IMG/VR virus record: IMGVR_UViG_3300025174_000099
Span: 1 to 25,986 of that record
Source of the DNA: a virus
Length of the DNA: 25,986 nucleotides
Reading direction: 5' to 3' (one strand)
This document shows positions 1-22,110 of the stretch, piece after piece. The position numbers and the translations under genes are program-made. How positions within the stretch are numbered: the first letter of the stretch is position 1; every line of letters starts with the position of its first letter. Below the pieces are notes generated by a model, which was not told where the DNA came from, searched no databases, and was given only the letters and a program-made list of their open reading frames with translations.

Positions 1-365
1 TTACCTTTGAATCCAAGATACATTCTTTCGCCGAAAAGGAAGCTGACAGGCATGGCGACAAGCTCAAAGCCCAAGACCTCCAGTTCGGGCGTGGTGGCCT
101 TTAACATCATCCCCGCCCCTACCCCCACGGACAGGATGACTGCGACGTACCTGGAGGCCCCACGGAGGTTTATAACCCATTGAGAAGGTGTTCCGTTGGG
201 ATTATCCAACAGCGCCAGGGCTTTCAGCCTCTCTATATTAGCGTTCTCTAATTTGATCTGATCGTCCACCGATAACCCGATCCATTTGCGGGAAGCTGAC
301 GCGAATAGATTTTTGAGCATATCAACAGCAGCGGGGGCGACAAGTGACGCGAGAATAGTTTCCAT
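1..365 (-). CDS. Holin-like small membrane protein (3' end outside window)
   Basis: The reading frame starts with ATG at 365, one base after the endolysin stop, and is still open at base 1 after 121 codons, so the C-terminus is missing. The N-terminal half is mixed and helical (METILASLVAP...). The C-terminal half has two hydrophobic stretches, roughly residues 70-87 and 96-110, followed by FGERMYLGFKG. That closing pattern and the short length recall the three-TM holin family seen in gene transfer agents and many phages (GTA_holin_3TM). Its place directly behind a GH108 endolysin supports a lysis role, presumably in the inner membrane. The family call rests on pattern memory; an unrelated membrane protein remains possible. 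Confidence 0.6.
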   Translation of the reverse strand, partial: METILASLVAPAAVDMLKNLFASASRKWIGLSVDDQIKLENANIERLKALALLDNPNGTPSQWVINLRGASRYVAVILSVGVGAGMMLKATTPELEVLGFELVAMPVSFLFGERMYLGFKG

Positions 366-3049: not shown

Positions 3050-5083
3050 CTATTCTCTCAATCTGTTCGTGCCCTGAATGGCGGCGGTTTTTGCTATTTC
3101 GGTTTTCAGGAATTCATCCAAATCGGATAAAAGATTTTTGCCCATAGTTTGCAATCTGGAAGGAAGCCTGCTGATTACTTCGGCCGCGCGAGATGGATTG
3201 GCGGCGATGTCAGCGGCAATTTTGTTTACTTCCTTATCGCCTTCCCTGCCGCTGATTCGCATGACCCATTTTGCAATCATATTTGGGGTCCACAACATCT
3301 GCGGCAAACTTTCCATTTTCCCCGTTACTGGGTTGACTGCGCCTGGAAGATTAACTTCCTTCGCCATTCTCCCTGCCATGGCTTCTCTTTCCAATTCACG
3401 GGTTACTTTATTGACCAGCATCGTTTCATTCGGCAATAAAATATCTTCCAATTTCGCGTATCGTTGCGATCCCGTTGCTTTCTTGAAAGTCTTCGGAATA
3501 TCTCTGGTAGCATTCAAGAATTGTGTCGCTCTTTCTTCCCCTTTTGGCCCCGTAAGAATATTCGCCAGTGTATCCCTGGCCTTAGTGCGATTCAGAATCT
3601 CCGAAAGCCGCTTGTGTTCCTGCCGGGCAAAATCATAAGCCTTGGATTTGGCTCCAATCCATTTTACAAGTTCCCCTTGCGTTCTTGCCAAGGCTCTGGC
3701 CTCGGAAGCGCCGATGCCGAATTGTTCTGGATTTTTTATCACGTCATCGAGCGCCATTTTTGTAAAATGGAGAGATTCAATAGGATATTTCGCGCCAATT
3801 TTGAATTGTTTGCCGTCTTTGACAGCCAAATCCTTGGCGCGACCAAGAATTTTAGGCGTATCGTTTCCAAATTTATCGAAAATTGTTTGCAATTCTCGGT
3901 CTGGAGTTGCCGTATGAGGAATTTTCTTTCCATCTATAGTTCTATAAAACGCCTTGTCGTAATTCTTCGCCGCCGCAATTGTGCGCTCTAGCAGCGCCGA
4001 TTCCGCCGATGTGCCCTTGGCGATATTCTCAATAGCACCTTTTCGGATTTGTTCTTGTGCAGCCTCGATACTACGAAGTTTGGTGGTTGTCTCCGGCAGG
4101 CTTGCAAGTTCTTCCTGCAAACGCACCACCGGTCCACCGAATCTTTCGCCCTTGCCGATATTCCCCGCCGCTATCGCCTCGGCAGAAGTCGGTTTATTTA
4201 ATATCTTCTCTGCTTGTAACAGTGATTTAACCGTCTTTCCCGTGGCTTCTTCTCCGCCTTCCTTGGCGATGGATTGGAAATGAGCTTCGGCTATTTTTTG
4301 CGGACCTGTCTTAGTATGAAGACGCGCGGCGTCTCTCAAAGTCGAATAAATCTTACCGCCGATCTTTCCCGTCCCCTTGAGAAGTGAAATTAGTGTAGAC
4401 GCCGCCACGGGGACAGCCGCGCCGATCCCGGTCTGAATTCCTTTCTCATTAAAGAAATCCTCGCCACCTGAAGTTACTGGGATAGTAAGCGCCGCCGTGC
4501 CGCCGCCCGTAAGCATCCTCCCGACAGTGCGACCTGTCAGGGAAGGGGCTTGTTCTGAAATGACCTTAGGCAAAGCTCCGGCTATGCTTTTATAGGCCAT
4601 CGTTCCAGGATACAAAGAACCAAGAAGCCCGGCTATATCCCATTCCTCTCCCACCGGCCTTCCCGATCTTGCCGCCATGGCTTGGCGTTTTGCGGCCTCC
4701 AATCCACCTAAAGTTTGATTAAGCCCCCCCGCGCTCAGAAGAGGCTTCCCGCCGGTATGTATGCCCAGCTTCTTTTTAACCAGCCGACTTAAATCGGTAG
4801 CTCCGGATATATCAGCCAGTTTTTCACCTACATTCGCCCCCAGTTGGATGGGGGCCATAAAGGCTTGATAAGCCCCCAACCCCGCGCGAGCGATGGGGGA
4901 AGCCAGAACAGGATAATCGTCAACCGGCTTCCCCCCCTTAAAAAGGGACATGACTTGAGATGACGTTATCTGGGGACGCATCTTCATCAAGTCCTCGGTG
5001 GACATGGAAGATAGCTCTGTCAGCGATGCTTCCTCGCGCATCTTCATCAAGTCCTTGGTGGACATGGAAGATAGGTCGGTCAT
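3050..5083 (-). CDS. Large internal / DNA-ejection virion protein candidate
   Basis: 677 aa. The start overlaps the preceding stop (ATGA). The N-terminus holds two copies of a short motif, LSSMSTxDLMKM, at residues 4-15 and 24-35, encoded by a 60-bp tandem duplication. Residues 70-250 are rich in Gly and Ala with moderately hydrophobic helices (for example ARAGLGAYQAFMAPIQLGAN). The remainder is a long, charged, helical region. Large helical proteins in this position, between the head-completion genes and the tail fibre, are generally ejected with the DNA and form the trans-envelope channel (as P22 gp7/gp16/gp20 do). No lytic transglycosylase motif was found. The role is inferred from position and composition. 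Confidence 0.6.
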   Translation of the reverse strand: MTDLSSMSTKDLMKMREEASLTELSSMSTEDLMKMRPQITSSQVMSLFKGGKPVDDYPVLASPIARAGLGAYQAFMAPIQLGANVGEKLADISGATDLSRLVKKKLGIHTGGKPLLSAGGLNQTLGGLEAAKRQAMAARSGRPVGEEWDIAGLLGSLYPGTMAYKSIAGALPKVISEQAPSLTGRTVGRMLTGGGTAALTIPVTSGGEDFFNEKGIQTGIGAAVPVAASTLISLLKGTGKIGGKIYSTLRDAARLHTKTGPQKIAEAHFQSIAKEGGEEATGKTVKSLLQAEKILNKPTSAEAIAAGNIGKGERFGGPVVRLQEELASLPETTTKLRSIEAAQEQIRKGAIENIAKGTSAESALLERTIAAAKNYDKAFYRTIDGKKIPHTATPDRELQTIFDKFGNDTPKILGRAKDLAVKDGKQFKIGAKYPIESLHFTKMALDDVIKNPEQFGIGASEARALARTQGELVKWIGAKSKAYDFARQEHKRLSEILNRTKARDTLANILTGPKGEERATQFLNATRDIPKTFKKATGSQRYAKLEDILLPNETMLVNKVTRELEREAMAGRMAKEVNLPGAVNPVTGKMESLPQMLWTPNMIAKWVMRISGREGDKEVNKIAADIAANPSRAAEVISRLPSRLQTMGKNLLSDLDEFLKTEIAKTAAIQGTNRLRE
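4976..5083 (-). repeat. 60-bp tandem duplication at the 5' end of the large virion gene
   Basis: Two copies of a stretch of about 48 bases begin exactly 60 bp apart, at 4977 and 5037 (plus-strand landmark GCATCTTCATCAAGTCC). They differ at few positions over about 40 bases. Translated, they give two copies of LSSMSTxDLMKMR separated by 20 residues. The near identity at nucleotide level points to a recent in-frame duplication. Confidence 0.9.
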
Positions 5084-8540: not shown

Positions 8541-9943
8541 CCGGATACCTTCATCGCCGCGTATGTAATTACCACCTTGATCGGATCGGTTATCCGTATC
8601 TTGAACAACCAATCACTTCCAAGTCCCAGCCGTCTCCATACGACCCTGGTTAGATATTTCCCAATAGCACCGATGGAGGTCCAAAGTTCATTCCCCCACG
8701 TATGGCCGTTATCGCGGCTTATTTGAAGCATGGCTTGGGGGTTCACGCCCTGTCCAGCCGCCAATCCCACGCCGGTTTCCATGTCAACAAACAATTCATT
8801 TATGATCATGGGATCGCCGTTCTTAAAAATATGCCGCCCAATGATCTCCCGCGCGATGGCGACGCCATTATCCGTATATGTACCTGGACTAAGTTCATAT
8901 ATATCGCCCGTGGCATAATCCGCGATCAGGGATTTATTCAAATAATCCAAACACATTTCCCCACGGTGCCTGTCTCCCGAAAGCCCATATTCCAATGCAC
9001 TCCACATTCCGGTGGATGCATCATAGAGCCAGGATTTTTCGGAGGTCGGGAAATTGAGCTGGTACATCGGATGACCGTTCAGCATGTAAGAATACCCAGT
9101 AGCGGCGGCGACATCGGAATAATTATTTATTATAAAATCCAATTCCTGAGTCGAAACAACCTTGGGAGCATATCCTTGAAAAAACATGACATGCGCTTGT
9201 CCTTGCTTGGATTTCATCAAGGCAATTAGACCGGAATTGAATTTTGCAAGCGACCATCTGGCGACCAGTCCGAATTCCTGCGTTGCCCCCTTAATGGGTT
9301 GAAATGGGAAATCAGACGCGCCGACATTCGCCCAAAATTCCGTCGTGCTTTTTCCAAAGAGAGGAATTTCACCATTGTCGGAAATGATCCGGACTATTCC
9401 GTCCGGATTTGATTCAGCGGTGGCAAAAGCCAGCGCATTCCAAGTCGCTCCATCCGCCGAGATGAAAAATTCATCAGATTCTCCGTCATCGGCGATAAAT
9501 TGCCCATCCAGCCAAGCACAGGTTTTTGCGATTTGCGGGAATCCCGCCGCCACGATTTGCGCGAACGTCGTGGTAGCGACGGTATATGTGTATCCATTGG
9601 TTCCGGTAGTCAATAAAATAACCGAACCGTTATAAGCCAAGTCCACTCGTCCGGTAGTGGTGCTAACAGTGCCTCTTGATGTTTTCGCTCCGGCATTATT
9701 GACTTCGTAAAACGTACCTTGATGAACAAGGTAATATAAATCACCGGCGGCAATCCAACCTCGAATCGGCGTATTCCCCAACGAACTCCCGGCCCTCAAA
9801 ATCAATCCAGGAGTACCATGAAAAATCAATCTGGATTTTTCCGCATCCGGGTCTATCTCGGCATATAAATTAAGATGTCGCTGAGCCGTGGAGACAACGG
9901 ATTTTCCTTCTTGATTGGCTCTAAAAAGCGGGACAATGGGCAT
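8537..9943 (-). CDS. P22 gp10-like packaged DNA stabilisation / tail needle-hub protein
   Basis: 468 aa, close to P22 gp10 (472 aa). The start at 9943 shares one base with the gp4-like stop (TAATG); GGTGGG precedes it. Recognisable segments are an N-terminal PLFRANQEGKSVVSTAQRHLNLYAE, a central LFGKSTTEFWANVG, QGYAPKVVS, and the C-terminal HTWGNELW and VVWRRLGLGSDWLFKIRITDP. In P22 this protein joins the tail machine below gp4 and closes the filled head so that DNA does not leak. Gene order (gp4-like then gp10-like) matches P22. It acts in virion assembly in the cytoplasm. Confidence 0.9.
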   Translation of the reverse strand: MPIVPLFRANQEGKSVVSTAQRHLNLYAEIDPDAEKSRLIFHGTPGLILRAGSSLGNTPIRGWIAAGDLYYLVHQGTFYEVNNAGAKTSRGTVSTTTGRVDLAYNGSVILLTTGTNGYTYTVATTTFAQIVAAGFPQIAKTCAWLDGQFIADDGESDEFFISADGATWNALAFATAESNPDGIVRIISDNGEIPLFGKSTTEFWANVGASDFPFQPIKGATQEFGLVARWSLAKFNSGLIALMKSKQGQAHVMFFQGYAPKVVSTQELDFIINNYSDVAAATGYSYMLNGHPMYQLNFPTSEKSWLYDASTGMWSALEYGLSGDRHRGEMCLDYLNKSLIADYATGDIYELSPGTYTDNGVAIAREIIGRHIFKNGDPMIINELFVDMETGVGLAAGQGVNPQAMLQISRDNGHTWGNELWTSIGAIGKYLTRVVWRRLGLGSDWLFKIRITDPIKVVITYAAMKVSG

Positions 9944-10659
9944 TATAGCCCACCACTATATATATTCCGCCTACCGCCCGATTGACCCAACGATGCAGCC
10001 CCACTATCTACTTGCGCGATCATCGAGGGACGATTCATGTTTTGTATGATTGCCCGTGCTTGCACGGCAATTTGTTCCACCTTCCCCGGAATTTCCACTC
10101 CGAATTCCGGCCCGAATTCCTCCGCCAAGCTGAATTCGATGGCGCGCTGATAACCCGGAGGCAGCGCAAGCTCAGTGGTTAATCCAGCGAACGATTGAAG
10201 TGTCTGCCAGGTATTGAGTTTAAGTGTGACCACAACGGAAGGAACGGGATAGAGATAAATTGAGGCCAGTGGATAGGCGGAATCCATGAACAGGTAATTC
10301 GGCAGGGTGCTTGTTACTGTCTTTGTGACGATGGCGTCATATTGATTGCGATCAGTCAAAACATCAACCGGATACCATTGAGAATTGGAATCCATGACAA
10401 AAGCGCCGTCTATTTTAACGGGGCGCTGTACGGCGAAATTTCCAATTCTCAAAATAGTGCGGAGAGATGTCGAGGCGGGCCATGTGTGCGAATTTTGGAC
10501 TATCTGATAAACAAACAACCGGCTTAGTTGCCATGAATCCAACATGGTGTTCAAGGCCACCAATCCATCGGTGGATTCATCGGAATCCAATGGTTCTCCC
10601 TTACGAAGAACTCTCGCAAGCCGCATGGCCCTGGTGATGATAGCTAGCGCAGTCGCCAT
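9943..10659 (-). CDS. P22 gp4-like head-tail connector / tail accessory protein
   Basis: 238 aa. The N-terminus MATALAIITRAMRLARVLRKGEPLDSDESTDGLVALNTMLDSW is characteristic of the P22 gp4-type tail accessory factors: a repeated helix, then a DxL-x-x-LNxMLxxW motif. P22 gp4 is about 166 aa, so this version is longer; the middle and C-terminal half carry beta-type segments (LNTWQTL, PPGYQRAIEFSLAEEFGPEFGVE). Homologues bind the portal ring as the first head-completion protein after DNA packaging. The gene lies three bases after a small AT-hook-like gene and overlaps the gp10-like gene by one base, so expression is probably coupled. Confidence 0.87.
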   Translation of the reverse strand: MATALAIITRAMRLARVLRKGEPLDSDESTDGLVALNTMLDSWQLSRLFVYQIVQNSHTWPASTSLRTILRIGNFAVQRPVKIDGAFVMDSNSQWYPVDVLTDRNQYDAIVTKTVTSTLPNYLFMDSAYPLASIYLYPVPSVVVTLKLNTWQTLQSFAGLTTELALPPGYQRAIEFSLAEEFGPEFGVEIPGKVEQIAVQARAIIQNMNRPSMIAQVDSGAASLGQSGGRRNIYSGGL

Positions 10660-17821: not shown

Positions 17822-20092
17822 TCAGTTCAACGTGGACTCGGAAGCCACCGGATTACCGGCCTCGTCATAAATCAGCCGGCGGGGGGCCGTCACGACCTGA
17901 GCTACTCTATCCAGGGCTTCCAGAACTGCTTTTTGGATGGTTTCAGCGGACTGCGTGTTTTCCAGCGATTCTTTTTGAAGATCGTTTATTTCCTTCAGTT
18001 TGGCGTCCAGTTGCGCCTTCAGTAAATTGGCTTCCGCAGCCGCGATTTCTTTTTCGGATTCCAGCGTGGCGGATTTGATTTCGAATTCTTTTTCCGCAAG
18101 TTTCTTTTGCAGCGCGAACAGGGATTTTTCATTTTCGATTGAAGCCATGATCGTATTCAATTTCTCAACCTCTTGCTGGACCCTGGACATCGCGTCTTTT
18201 GCTTTTTGCTCCGCTTCCCGAGACTGTTGTTCTTGCCCCGCGATCATTTGGGACTGTTCTTGAATCTGTTGCATAGCGTTGTTTATTTCCGCCTCTTTTT
18301 GTCCCAGCATTTGAGTCGCCTGCTGAATTTGCCCTTTTTGTTTTTCCAGATTATTCGGTTCTTCGTCTTTCAATTCCGGAGGAAGCATTTTTTTGAATCG
18401 CTCGGAAATCTTCTCCGCGCCCGGCCAATCCTGAGCCTTGAAGATAATATCTCCGAATTGCGACATGAATTCCTTGTTCCCACGAGAAATCTCCATCATG
18501 GCATCGGCGGATTCGAGTCTTCGGGTCGTGTAGGAGGGACCGGCGACTATCGTCACGTCATATTTTCCGACTCCGAGATTATAGATTTTTTGAATCTTTC
18601 CGTTGATGGATTTTTCAGCGGAAGGGACTGGATTCCCGTTTTCGTCCGCGAGACTCGAATCAATCATGGCGTTGCTCAATTCACCGTCCTCGCCGATGAT
18701 GCGGGCGATTTTCTTGGTATCGTAAATCTTCGGAATGATGTCAACGATGTCCTGCCCGGTTCTCCGGAGGGTTCTCGCAAAATTATCCGAAAAATGGAAA
18801 CTTCCGGTATCCCCCTCGCGGTTTCTAGCCTGAATGGCCTTGCCGGAAGTCTCATTCGACGGCGCCCCAAGAGTCGCGTTATAGCGCCCCATCGAAGCCT
18901 GGATATTGTGTTCCGACTGCTCCATAACGGACAGCCATCCGGTACTGACTCCGGGAGGTGCTTCACGCCGTGGCGCGCCGACCAGAACGCCGTCCACGGA
19001 GACGGGCTTATACGGAAGAACCGAGATGTTTCTTCGATTCGCGGACTTCCATAAATCGGCGTTATCCTCCACCTGCCCGACGGCGGCGACATAGGACGCC
19101 CTCGGAGCTAAGGCGACGTTTTCAATGAAGGCCGAAACCGCGTAATTATCTGCCCGTTGCGCGTCCATCGCCGGCCGGATAAGGCCGGAACGCAAGATTT
19201 TGCCTTCGACATCCAGTTCGTTACCGATGACCTCATAGATGGGAATGGAGTCTCCTATCCATTCCCCATCTTCGAGGATTTTCGTGGCGGTCAGCTTTCT
19301 CCAGCGAATTTTTATCTTCTCGCTTTCACGTTCAGCCTTGATGGGGGCTCCGGGAAATTCGTGTTCTTCCCCTATTGACCCGTCTTCCAGAAGAACGATC
19401 TTTATTTTCGTTCGTTCTTTCCAGAAATATTCCGCGTAGATAACCCAGTCACCGCCATACCATTCGGTGAATTCTTTTCCCTCGGTCTCGAATCCCTGAA
19501 GGGCGTCCTTGCCTTTCACGCCGAATTCAACCTCGAAGTCTTTCTTCGGGACTTTGTAAAGAATGAAACCGTATTCCGCGTCAGAGCCGTCCGGCTCCTG
19601 TCTTTCCGGAGACAAATAGGTGGAAAACCTGTTTCTTATTCGCTTGATCTTGATTTCCTGATCAAAGGATTTCGGATCGCTGTACTCCGTCAGGATTCTC
19701 CAAAACCCGAAACCGCCGTCCACCGCGCATTCAAAGGCCGTGTCATAAGCAACATCCGCCCTCGACCTGTCCTGGATGTGTCTCAATATTCCGTCGTAAA
19801 TTCTGGCGACCTCGATGTCCCCGCCATCGTCAACGGGTCTGACCTTGATCTGTGGACGATTTTGCCGTCCGTCGTTGACAACCTGCATGATGTGTTGATT
19901 GAGCTTATCAACGACAAGGCACGGTCTTTTCCCCTCCGGGTCGTTTTCGCGCTCCGCTCTAACCTGTTCATCCCATTGCTTGAGATCGCGGAAATCGAGA
20001 GCCTCCCGCGCCCGCGCGTGATTCTCCCTGTCGGCCTCGACACAACGGCTGTATCGGTCACGAACAAGTTTCAGGAAATCTTCTTCTTCCAT
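17822..20092 (-). CDS. Portal protein, P22 type
   Basis: About 756 aa (P22 gp1 is 725). ATG at 20092 overlaps the terminase stop (TAATG) with GGATGGG just upstream; a TTG at 20104 is the alternative. P22-portal segments are clear: ALDFRDLKQWDEQVRAERE, RPCLVVDKLNQHIMQVVNDGRQNRPQIKVRP, AFECAVDGGFGFWRI, and the later GAPSNETSGKAIQARNREGDTG. The dodecameric ring forms the packaging and exit vertex. The C-terminal part, about residues 590-720, is Gln/Glu/Lys-rich and strongly coiled-coil, matching the barrel that projects into the P22 capsid and responds to DNA pressure. It follows the terminase gene. Confidence 0.95.
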   Translation of the reverse strand: MEEEDFLKLVRDRYSRCVEADRENHARAREALDFRDLKQWDEQVRAERENDPEGKRPCLVVDKLNQHIMQVVNDGRQNRPQIKVRPVDDGGDIEVARIYDGILRHIQDRSRADVAYDTAFECAVDGGFGFWRILTEYSDPKSFDQEIKIKRIRNRFSTYLSPERQEPDGSDAEYGFILYKVPKKDFEVEFGVKGKDALQGFETEGKEFTEWYGGDWVIYAEYFWKERTKIKIVLLEDGSIGEEHEFPGAPIKAERESEKIKIRWRKLTATKILEDGEWIGDSIPIYEVIGNELDVEGKILRSGLIRPAMDAQRADNYAVSAFIENVALAPRASYVAAVGQVEDNADLWKSANRRNISVLPYKPVSVDGVLVGAPRREAPPGVSTGWLSVMEQSEHNIQASMGRYNATLGAPSNETSGKAIQARNREGDTGSFHFSDNFARTLRRTGQDIVDIIPKIYDTKKIARIIGEDGELSNAMIDSSLADENGNPVPSAEKSINGKIQKIYNLGVGKYDVTIVAGPSYTTRRLESADAMMEISRGNKEFMSQFGDIIFKAQDWPGAEKISERFKKMLPPELKDEEPNNLEKQKGQIQQATQMLGQKEAEINNAMQQIQEQSQMIAGQEQQSREAEQKAKDAMSRVQQEVEKLNTIMASIENEKSLFALQKKLAEKEFEIKSATLESEKEIAAAEANLLKAQLDAKLKEINDLQKESLENTQSAETIQKAVLEALDRVAQVVTAPRRLIYDEAGNPVASESTLN

Positions 20093-22110
20093 TATCCCAT
20101 CCAACCGACGTGTTGATTGTTGTAACTGGGAGATTGTCTGCCTGTTTCTTTCTTTTTTTCCATCGGCCAGATCAGGGTCAGGTCGGGTTCGCAGATGCGA
20201 GACAGCGAATCCAGCCCGTCTTCGTGCATCCCCACCGGAAACGCCATGTATTCCTCCTCGATGAAGGATCGCACCAGATCAATCGGAGTGCGCTCCCAAT
20301 TGGTGACATACATGGATTCCGGCAGCCAGATTCTCCCGGCCACGAATAGCGGGATCAGGCGCTTGATGCGATCCGATTTGGATGTCTGGCCGCCGACTTC
20401 CGTGATTCCAAAGCGATAGTTTTCATACTCCATGCGTGAATGAAGATGTTCTATGTCCGCCATCATGCCATATTTTTCATAACGCACCTGTTTCGGTTTG
20501 TATTTTCTGTGGGCCTCGAAAACCCTGTCGCCGCGTTCCTTGAGATTCAATCGGTCCCGGACGATGGGGATACAATAATAATTTTCATCCCGTCCCAGCC
20601 CGACGGCCCAACCCGCCGTGTAATCACTAGATCGTTTCTTTGAATTGGCGGCGTCGAAAAGAAGATACCAATTCAATTCCTCCATCTTGATCGTTTGATA
20701 AGTTCTCAACCATTCCCGCTTGAACCCCTGCAAGGCGTCGGCCTTCGGTCGTAGAAGAACCTGCGCGCTATATACATATGGTCCCATGTCCCGTCTTTTC
20801 CGACGGTGTACATCTTCCGTCCAGAACACCGATTCGCCGTCTTCCGTCCCCCCGATACGTCCGGGATGCTCCCGCACAACGGCGGTTTTTCGTTCCGCAA
20901 TGGTCCCGTAGGCGTCGTTGAAGTGCCAGCGGGTGCCGGCGAATCTTCTTTTTCCGGTAGCCGTTCCAAGCGAATACGACTCCTCCAGGCGAGACATGGT
21001 TTTGGAGATCATCTCCGGAGTGCTGACCGACGCCTGCACCACGATGTCGTCATACAGCAACACCTTGAAATGTTTGGATACCGGCTGTCCGTCGACCAAC
21101 CCCCAGGCCTCGACCGTCGCCTCGTTCGGATTGGATTTCCTCCTGACGATGATTCCATCGTCTTCCGCCCACTTCGGAGATTCCTTCAAATTCTCCCCCC
21201 ACAGAATATCCGGGAAAGCTCCCTGCAAAACCCTATTGGTCTCCAGTTCGCGCATGATCTGTCTGAGAAAAGCCTTGGCTATGGGCCGAGTATGACTGAA
21301 AATCCCGAAAGTGATTTCAGGGTCTTTCAGAATATCTTGAATGGTCAGCCCAAACGTGATTATCGAGCTGTTATGCGTCGGGACCAATTCACGGCCGGCG
21401 ACGTACATCCCACCAACCACTTGGATGCAGCGAGTTGGCACAGAAGGTACTCGCTCGATCTTCTGCACCACACGATCGAGTAAATACGGATCAATGGAAA
21501 GATTCGCCCTGGCAAACTCCAGTGGGGCGCTTGTCCCAACGTCCAGCCTTCCACCGATTGCAATCATATCGGCGGTGCTCGCAATGTATTCCTCGAATTC
21601 AACCAAATCGTTGTTTGCAACGCGGCGCCTGATCTTGCGGCGCAATCTCCACAGGTGCCCCGCCCCGGCCACGATCCTGGCACCGTCGCTGAACGTAATT
21701 TCGTAACATTCCGATGTCGTGTATCTGTCCGAAAGCGCAATGACCGGAACGTCCTTGCCGCTCGGAGCGAAAACCCGGTCACCAATCTTCAATTCGCCGT
21801 GCGTTGTCCAACCGCGATTTGCCGTAAGCATTGGCGTGTAATCAGCTAGGTCCTTATAATGCTCCCGGGACCAAAGATCCAAATAACCATCCGGCCCCTT
21901 CTCAATCTCCCTGACCCGGCTAAAAGCGAAGTCATTCAACATATCCTTCCGGCCACAAACCCGAACCAGCAGATAAAACAAATCCGACAGACACAAGAAC
22001 CTTACCGCTTGCGGTAGTTTATTCGTCTTTCTTCCTTCCTCCTCCACAAGGTCCCAGTAGGAAATCACTTTCCCCATCGAAAGAGAACGCAAGCGAGCCG
22101 TCAATTCCAT
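20092..22110 (-). CDS. Terminase large subunit interrupted by a class 3 mini-intein
   Basis: 672 aa as translated; about 511 aa once the intein (residues 87-247) is removed, a normal size. Extein parts: DLWSREHYK before and SSIITFGLTIQDIL after the intein join to a WxREHYKS-type Walker A loop of the P22-like terminases. Walker B is VLLYDD (350-355). Nuclease-domain acidic residues are likely in LLFDAANS (D486) and HEDGLDSLS (D631/D634). The enzyme drives ATP-dependent DNA packaging and cuts concatemers. AAGG lies five bases before ATG. Because the intein splits the ATP-binding loop, the unspliced protein should be inactive. It is followed by the portal gene with TAATG overlap. Confidence 0.95.
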   Translation of the reverse strand: MELTARLRSLSMGKVISYWDLVEEEGRKTNKLPQAVRFLCLSDLFYLLVRVCGRKDMLNDFAFSRVREIEKGPDGYLDLWSREHYKDLADYTPMLTANRGWTTHGELKIGDRVFAPSGKDVPVIALSDRYTTSECYEITFSDGARIVAGAGHLWRLRRKIRRRVANNDLVEFEEYIASTADMIAIGGRLDVGTSAPLEFARANLSIDPYLLDRVVQKIERVPSVPTRCIQVVGGMYVAGRELVPTHNSSIITFGLTIQDILKDPEITFGIFSHTRPIAKAFLRQIMRELETNRVLQGAFPDILWGENLKESPKWAEDDGIIVRRKSNPNEATVEAWGLVDGQPVSKHFKVLLYDDIVVQASVSTPEMISKTMSRLEESYSLGTATGKRRFAGTRWHFNDAYGTIAERKTAVVREHPGRIGGTEDGESVFWTEDVHRRKRRDMGPYVYSAQVLLRPKADALQGFKREWLRTYQTIKMEELNWYLLFDAANSKKRSSDYTAGWAVGLGRDENYYCIPIVRDRLNLKERGDRVFEAHRKYKPKQVRYEKYGMMADIEHLHSRMEYENYRFGITEVGGQTSKSDRIKRLIPLFVAGRIWLPESMYVTNWERTPIDLVRSFIEEEYMAFPVGMHEDGLDSLSRICEPDLTLIWPMEKKKETGRQSPSYNNQHVGWMG
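21370..21852 (-). mobile_element. Class 3 mini-intein in the terminase Walker A motif
   Basis: 161 codons, residues 87 (Asp) to 247 (Asn) of the terminase ORF. Block A is YTPMLTANRGWTTHGELK-IGDRVF; block B is VAGAGHLW (H152, W154); block F begins RCIQV (C228); block G is PTHN followed by Ser. There is no Cys or Ser at position 1. W in B12, C in F4 and T in G5 form the WCT triplet that defines class 3 inteins, which splice through the block F Cys. No DOD or HNH endonuclease blocks are present between B and F, so this is a mini-intein. The start residue is placed by the block A spacing and by extein continuity. Confidence 0.9.

Follow-up and report, generated by a model that had tools for sequence, protein, structure and literature searches.

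Does the segment that interrupts the large terminase gene of this phage splice itself out of the protein, and how did it come to sit there with no endonuclease of its own? The window, that is the whole stretch of DNA analysed here, is an IMG/VR record of 25,986 bp, in which the terminase gene (TerL) occupies positions 20092..22110 on the minus strand and encodes a 672-aa precursor. An earlier note on this DNA had read residues 87-247 as a class 3 mini-intein lying in the Walker A loop. On re-reading, its coordinates, the length of 161 aa, the boundaries and each of the residues it named were found to be correct, and the joined extein counts 511 aa. In our view the segment is very probably a class 3 mini-intein capable of splicing and derived from a full LAGLIDADG intein, and its removal would restore a 511-aa terminase.

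The terminase gene and its record

TerL matches phrog_38 (terminase large subunit) from residue 260 onward, with an E value of 3e-48. Matches to termin_lrg_T7 and psiM2_ORF9 were both under the curated cut-off, and Pfam gave nothing above cut-off for a terminase or for an intein. The gene is followed by a P22-like portal gene (17822-20104). The N-extein (residues 1-86, 21853..22110, minus strand) ends in REHYK, where Lys86 is the Walker A lysine, a residue that precedes the site in 109/109 intein-free homologues. The C-extein (20092..21369, minus strand) starts at Ser248 and holds Walker B and the nuclease domain; the Walker B pair Asp354-Asp355 (21046..21051, minus strand) is the same in 5/5 precursors. 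The Walker A loop is non-canonical, W[AS]REHxK[ST], with the usual glycines missing and a Gly before the Lys in some homologues only; it has no GxxxxGK, and the name Walker A is based on position and conservation. A model of the 672-aa precursor, built on a five-row alignment, had a pLDDT of 45.7 and was set aside.

The same virus is represented by another record, of 39,924 bp, in which the terminase is identical. The stretch shared by the two records measures 25,740 bases and differs only at window positions 10444-10452, where 7 of 9 adjacent bases are changed and TILRIGN becomes TIGIGGN in a 238-aa ORF (9943-10659, minus strand). Window positions 1-246 extend beyond the end of the other record (L019/L020) and overlap its start by 127 bp. 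Joined in this way, the two records form a circular genome map of about 40,043 bp, on which genes of the NinB-like, NinG-like and Mom-like DNA-modification type were noted.

A class 3 mini-intein with a complete signature

The insert (Asp87-Asn247, 21370..21852, minus strand) splits the sequence REHYK|SSIITFGL. Its first residue is Asp87, with no Cys, Ser or Thr nucleophile at that position, and Lys86 stands at -1. The WCT motif of class 3, as defined in PMC3196547 and PMC7664689, is complete: Trp154 in block B (His152-Leu-Trp154, 21649..21657, with the B:10 His and the B:12 Trp), Cys228, the predicted first nucleophile, in block F (F:4, 21427..21429), and Thr245 in block G (Thr245-His246-Asn247, 21370..21378), all on the minus strand and in the same columns as in the 72 class 3 inteins aligned. 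The C-terminal Asn247 is followed by Ser248 at +1 (21367..21369, minus strand), the putative second nucleophile, which would become the Walker A serine after splicing and which is Ser or Thr in every intein-free homologue. Solely T6, H66, W68, C142, T159, H160 and N161 (intein numbering) are invariant in the 72 relatives, that is the class 3 His-Trp-Cys-Thr set, the His-Asn pair and one block A Thr; the search patterns contained AGAGHLW and PTH, so that the invariance of His/Trp and of PTH is partly due to the way the 72 were selected, while Cys142 and Asn161 were absent from these patterns.

In a comparison with PDB sequences, the 161 residues aligned over their whole length to 6RIX, the class 3 intein of M. 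chimaera DnaB (E 5.5e-20), and the similarity is far above chance. The class 3 DnaB intein of M. smegmatis followed at 2.7e-17, and the next intein, a gp41-1 variant, came at 0.04. Mycobacteriophage terminase inteins were matched at 3e-16. An AlphaFold2 model of the intein, based on the 72-row alignment, had a pLDDT of 93.3 and superposed on 6BS8 over 123 residues at 1.3 A; Z scores were 22.1 and 21.3 to the class 3 structures 6BS8/6RIX/6RIY, versus 19.2 for gp41-1, the top of the class 1 inteins. Neither a LAGLIDADG motif nor a Pfam domain was found in the insert, which has 161 aa against 330-346 in its relatives. The class 3 mini-intein reading, with its WCT motif, Asp at position 1 and class 3 DnaB inteins as best PDB relatives, was thus borne out, as was the absence of an endonuclease.

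Predicted splicing route and possible redox control

In the precursor as translated, the insert would separate Lys86 from Ser248 within the Walker A loop and would fold as a Hint domain. Following the route established for class 3 inteins (PMC5222942), Cys228, together with His152 and Thr245, would attack the Lys86-Asp87 bond to give a thioester, the chain would be transferred to Ser248 and Asn247 would cyclise, leaving a terminase of 511 aa with its REHYKSS loop restored. With its Walker A loop interrupted, the precursor itself is very unlikely to hydrolyse ATP; loss of this activity has been shown for a RadA intein inserted in a P-loop, as cited in PMC6195587. The intein would persist because packaging, which we presume to be essential to the phage, requires either exact splicing or exact loss of the intein. 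In E. coli reporters splicing has been seen for terminase inteins of mycobacteriophages, two of which also cleave the intein-free allele (PMC5050341).

Cys135 (intein C49, 21706..21708, minus strand) and Cys228 (intein C142) are the only cysteines of the intein, and they align to Cys48 and Cys118 of Msm DnaBi1. In the latter a Cys48-Cys118 disulfide forms under H2O2 and splicing is reversibly blocked (PMC6195587). Msm Cys48 was described as non-conserved (PMC6195587); what is new here is that its equivalent is, judging from our alignment, common in phage class 3 inteins, since position 49 is Cys in 60/72 of them and in 28/34 clusters at 55% identity. The intein might then double as a redox switch, in which oxidation would pair Cys228 with Cys135 and stop splicing and packaging until reducing conditions return, an idea that supplements the splicing intein and does not exclude it. 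The placement of both cysteines and the frequency of Cys49 speak for such a switch, but in order of conservation position 49 comes no higher than 31st among the 161, some relatives have Ala, Ser, Thr, Met or Lys there (Met in L105 and L107), and a small residue could be kept at this place for packing. On balance we consider it unlikely. The broader proposal, that phage terminase P-loop class 3 inteins are as a group redox-gated through a conserved Cys49-Cys142 pair, with oxidation reversibly stopping splicing, which would delay packaging and so retain the copies without endonuclease, seems to us slightly less likely still. Redox control of packaging is nevertheless possible: the cysteine pair gives an anatomical basis to the suggestion of the earlier note that splicing could be a control point for packaging, and the common Cys49 makes it directly testable.

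Inteins that lack an endonuclease are expected to decay, and one class 3 intein pseudogene has been published (PMC3196547), which raises the question of a splicing-dead or cleavage-only relic within a defective terminase. We regard this as very improbable. The published pseudogene lacks the block B His and the block F Cys, both of which are present in the window intein; the catalytic residues, the reading frame of TerL and the terminase motifs of the extein are all intact, and the same sequence is found in two records. Moreover, the G001 record, which together with the window closes to the 40,043-bp map, holds one TerL match. The splicing-competent intein thus remains our reading of the segment.

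The insertion site in homologous terminases

Homologues were collected by a C-extein search, independent of the intein; the single 672-aa protein as query found few relatives, and an alignment of the C-extein did better. It yielded 114 loci, from viruses and bacterial assemblies, at which the C-extein start was present; 113 of them could be read at the site, and as the viral loci are the best 80 and include some near-duplicates, the counts that follow describe this sample and not frequencies. The Lys is joined straight to Ser (107 loci) or Thr (2 loci) in 109/113 homologues, W[AS]REHYK|S being the usual form. The placement of the insert between K and S of the Walker A loop, REHYK|SS, is thereby upheld, since K and S/T are universal in the intein-free proteins. 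Among the empty homologues whose C-extein is complete, the nearest is L181, found in a Gallionella assembly, with a C-extein identity of 75%; its phrog_38 match crosses the site without a break. That the segment is an ordinary lineage-specific domain of the terminase, kept as such by homologues, was the case set against the intein in the earlier note, and it has next to no chance of being right: the insert is in frame and has no stop, but it is missing from 109/113 homologues, its sequence and fold are those of class 3 inteins, and in other members an endonuclease lies within it.

Four of the 113 sites were occupied, in the window's own virus, L003 (=L027), L005 (=L036) and L188, and among these four the intein of the window alone is without endonuclease. 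In L188, an alphaproteobacterial assembly, the same-site intein (ORF from 3762, residues 92-413) reads PTFN for PTHN, the penultimate His being replaced by Phe.

Loss of the endonuclease

The earlier note had called the route of spread of this intein unclear, a question that its relatives and a remnant in its own sequence largely answer. Inteins of 330-346 aa lie at the identical site in L003, L005, L004, L101 and L006, and both LAGLIDADG motifs, GAWLGDG and RGLMDTDG, are found in the first four. The window sequence ANLSIDPYLL-D-RVVQKIERV aligns to AQLPIDPYVFGAWLGDG...TRLVRKIEGI of L003, and at IDPYLLD (21475..21495, minus strand) the relatives read IDPYV[FL]GAWLGDG. The window has thus kept the lead-in residues of the first endonuclease motif, after which the splicing domain picks up again, as expected from a deletion of about 170-185 residues. 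Taken together, the endonuclease in same-site relatives and the stump in the window indicate that the endonuclease was deleted. The ancestor would have been a complete, mobile intein whose LAGLIDADG homing endonuclease was directed at the conserved P-loop DNA, and an in-frame deletion would later have removed the endonuclease. A free-standing endonuclease acting in trans was also looked for: among 20 ORFs from the left part of the other record, Pfam found no LAGLIDADG or other homing endonuclease family, the only exception being a lambda NinG-like match.

Among the 12 class 3 mini-inteins recovered the stump is unique to the window, which suggests a fairly recent loss. The same-site mini-inteins of L105 and L107 have lost both endonuclease and linker, with end points that differ from those of the window, and at least two independent losses have probably occurred at this site. 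For the window intein itself, comparisons were either identical or saturated; in L105/L107, dN/dS was 0.28 for the sister mini-inteins versus 0.04 for the N-extein. Purifying selection thus seems to act on these mini-inteins, if less tightly.

Comparison with known inteins

Inteins in the P-loop of terminases are known from earlier publications, as are terminase inteins of class 3 and mini-inteins of this class. Among mycobacteriophage class 3 inteins, those of Redno2 and Baka (TerL1-b) also lie in the P-loop of the terminase and are about 43% identical to the window's, with WCT present in Redno2. They differ in having about 349 aa, a LAGLIDADG endonuclease and a site one residue further (QNGKG|D), and their terminases are not closely related to that of the window phage, which is P22-like. 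For TerL1-a, PMC5050341 describes a site flanked by the invariant Lys and Thr, and our site agrees in type with this description. Msm DnaBi1 (6BS8) and Mch DnaB1 (6RIX) are class 3 inteins without endonuclease and of the same fold (Z 22.1), and Msm DnaBi1 shares with the window intein the P-loop site and the positions of its two cysteines. Splicing of the mycobacterial DnaB mini-inteins has been demonstrated experimentally (PMC6195587, PMC5222942). Their host protein, however, is a bacterial helicase, and in the window intein the linker is longer and includes the endonuclease stump.

The closest counterparts come from the metagenomic phages L003, L005, L004 and L101, with the same K|S site, terminase family and WCT motif and an intein identity of 54-63%; they differ from the window in having retained the homing endonuclease (330-346 aa). 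L105 and L107 are, like the window, endonuclease-less at the K|S of a REHYK-type terminase. Unlike it, they have inteins of 145 aa, in which linker and stump are gone and position 49 is Met, the mark of a separate deletion. One insertion site in one terminase family is thus seen empty, with a full mobile intein and with an endonuclease-deleted one, and tree evidence of transfer is added to this.

Probable transfer between terminases

Identity to the window does not run in parallel for intein and extein: the respective values are 62 and 69% for L003, 55 and 63% for L005, 61 and 40% for L004, and 38 and 48% for L111. In the extein tree L004 groups with L006 (support 100/99), and the extein data reject L004 with window/L003/L005 (AU p 0.0015) while the intein data reject L004+L006 (p 0.028); the clades were picked once the trees were known, and both p-values are optimistic. 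This conflict between the two phylogenies of L004 points to transfer of inteins between terminases at one fixed site. The intein tree is weakly resolved, with most branches open, and is on its own too weak to place the window element, so that the path of transfer is uncertain. In L102:1-1800, a record frameshifted at several points and left out of the trees, the first 125 residues of the intein are 78% identical to the window's and the adjoining terminase only about 27%.

Class 3 inteins, held to be uncommon by the earlier note, turned out to be less rare at phage terminase P-loops, since 90 distinct ones were recovered, 77 of them directly between Lys and Ser/Thr and 61 of these after Gly-Lys. 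Phage P-loop class 3 inteins are common in viral metagenomes. Some proteins contain two. The nearly identical terminases of L105 (2298-2732 and 3024-3380) and L107 (1430-1864 and 2156-3172) each have a second class 3 intein, at GLVDGMPQ|A...THN|SKHYN, in which the endonuclease is kept in L107 (339 aa) and gone in L105 (119 aa), so that a polymorphism of endonuclease loss exists at one site. In the L153 ORF starting at 3236, class 3 inteins occupy residues 94-240 and 244-570, three residues apart, giving the P-loop layout PRQ|intein|CGK|intein|STTAV, and the first of them has Met before its last Asn.
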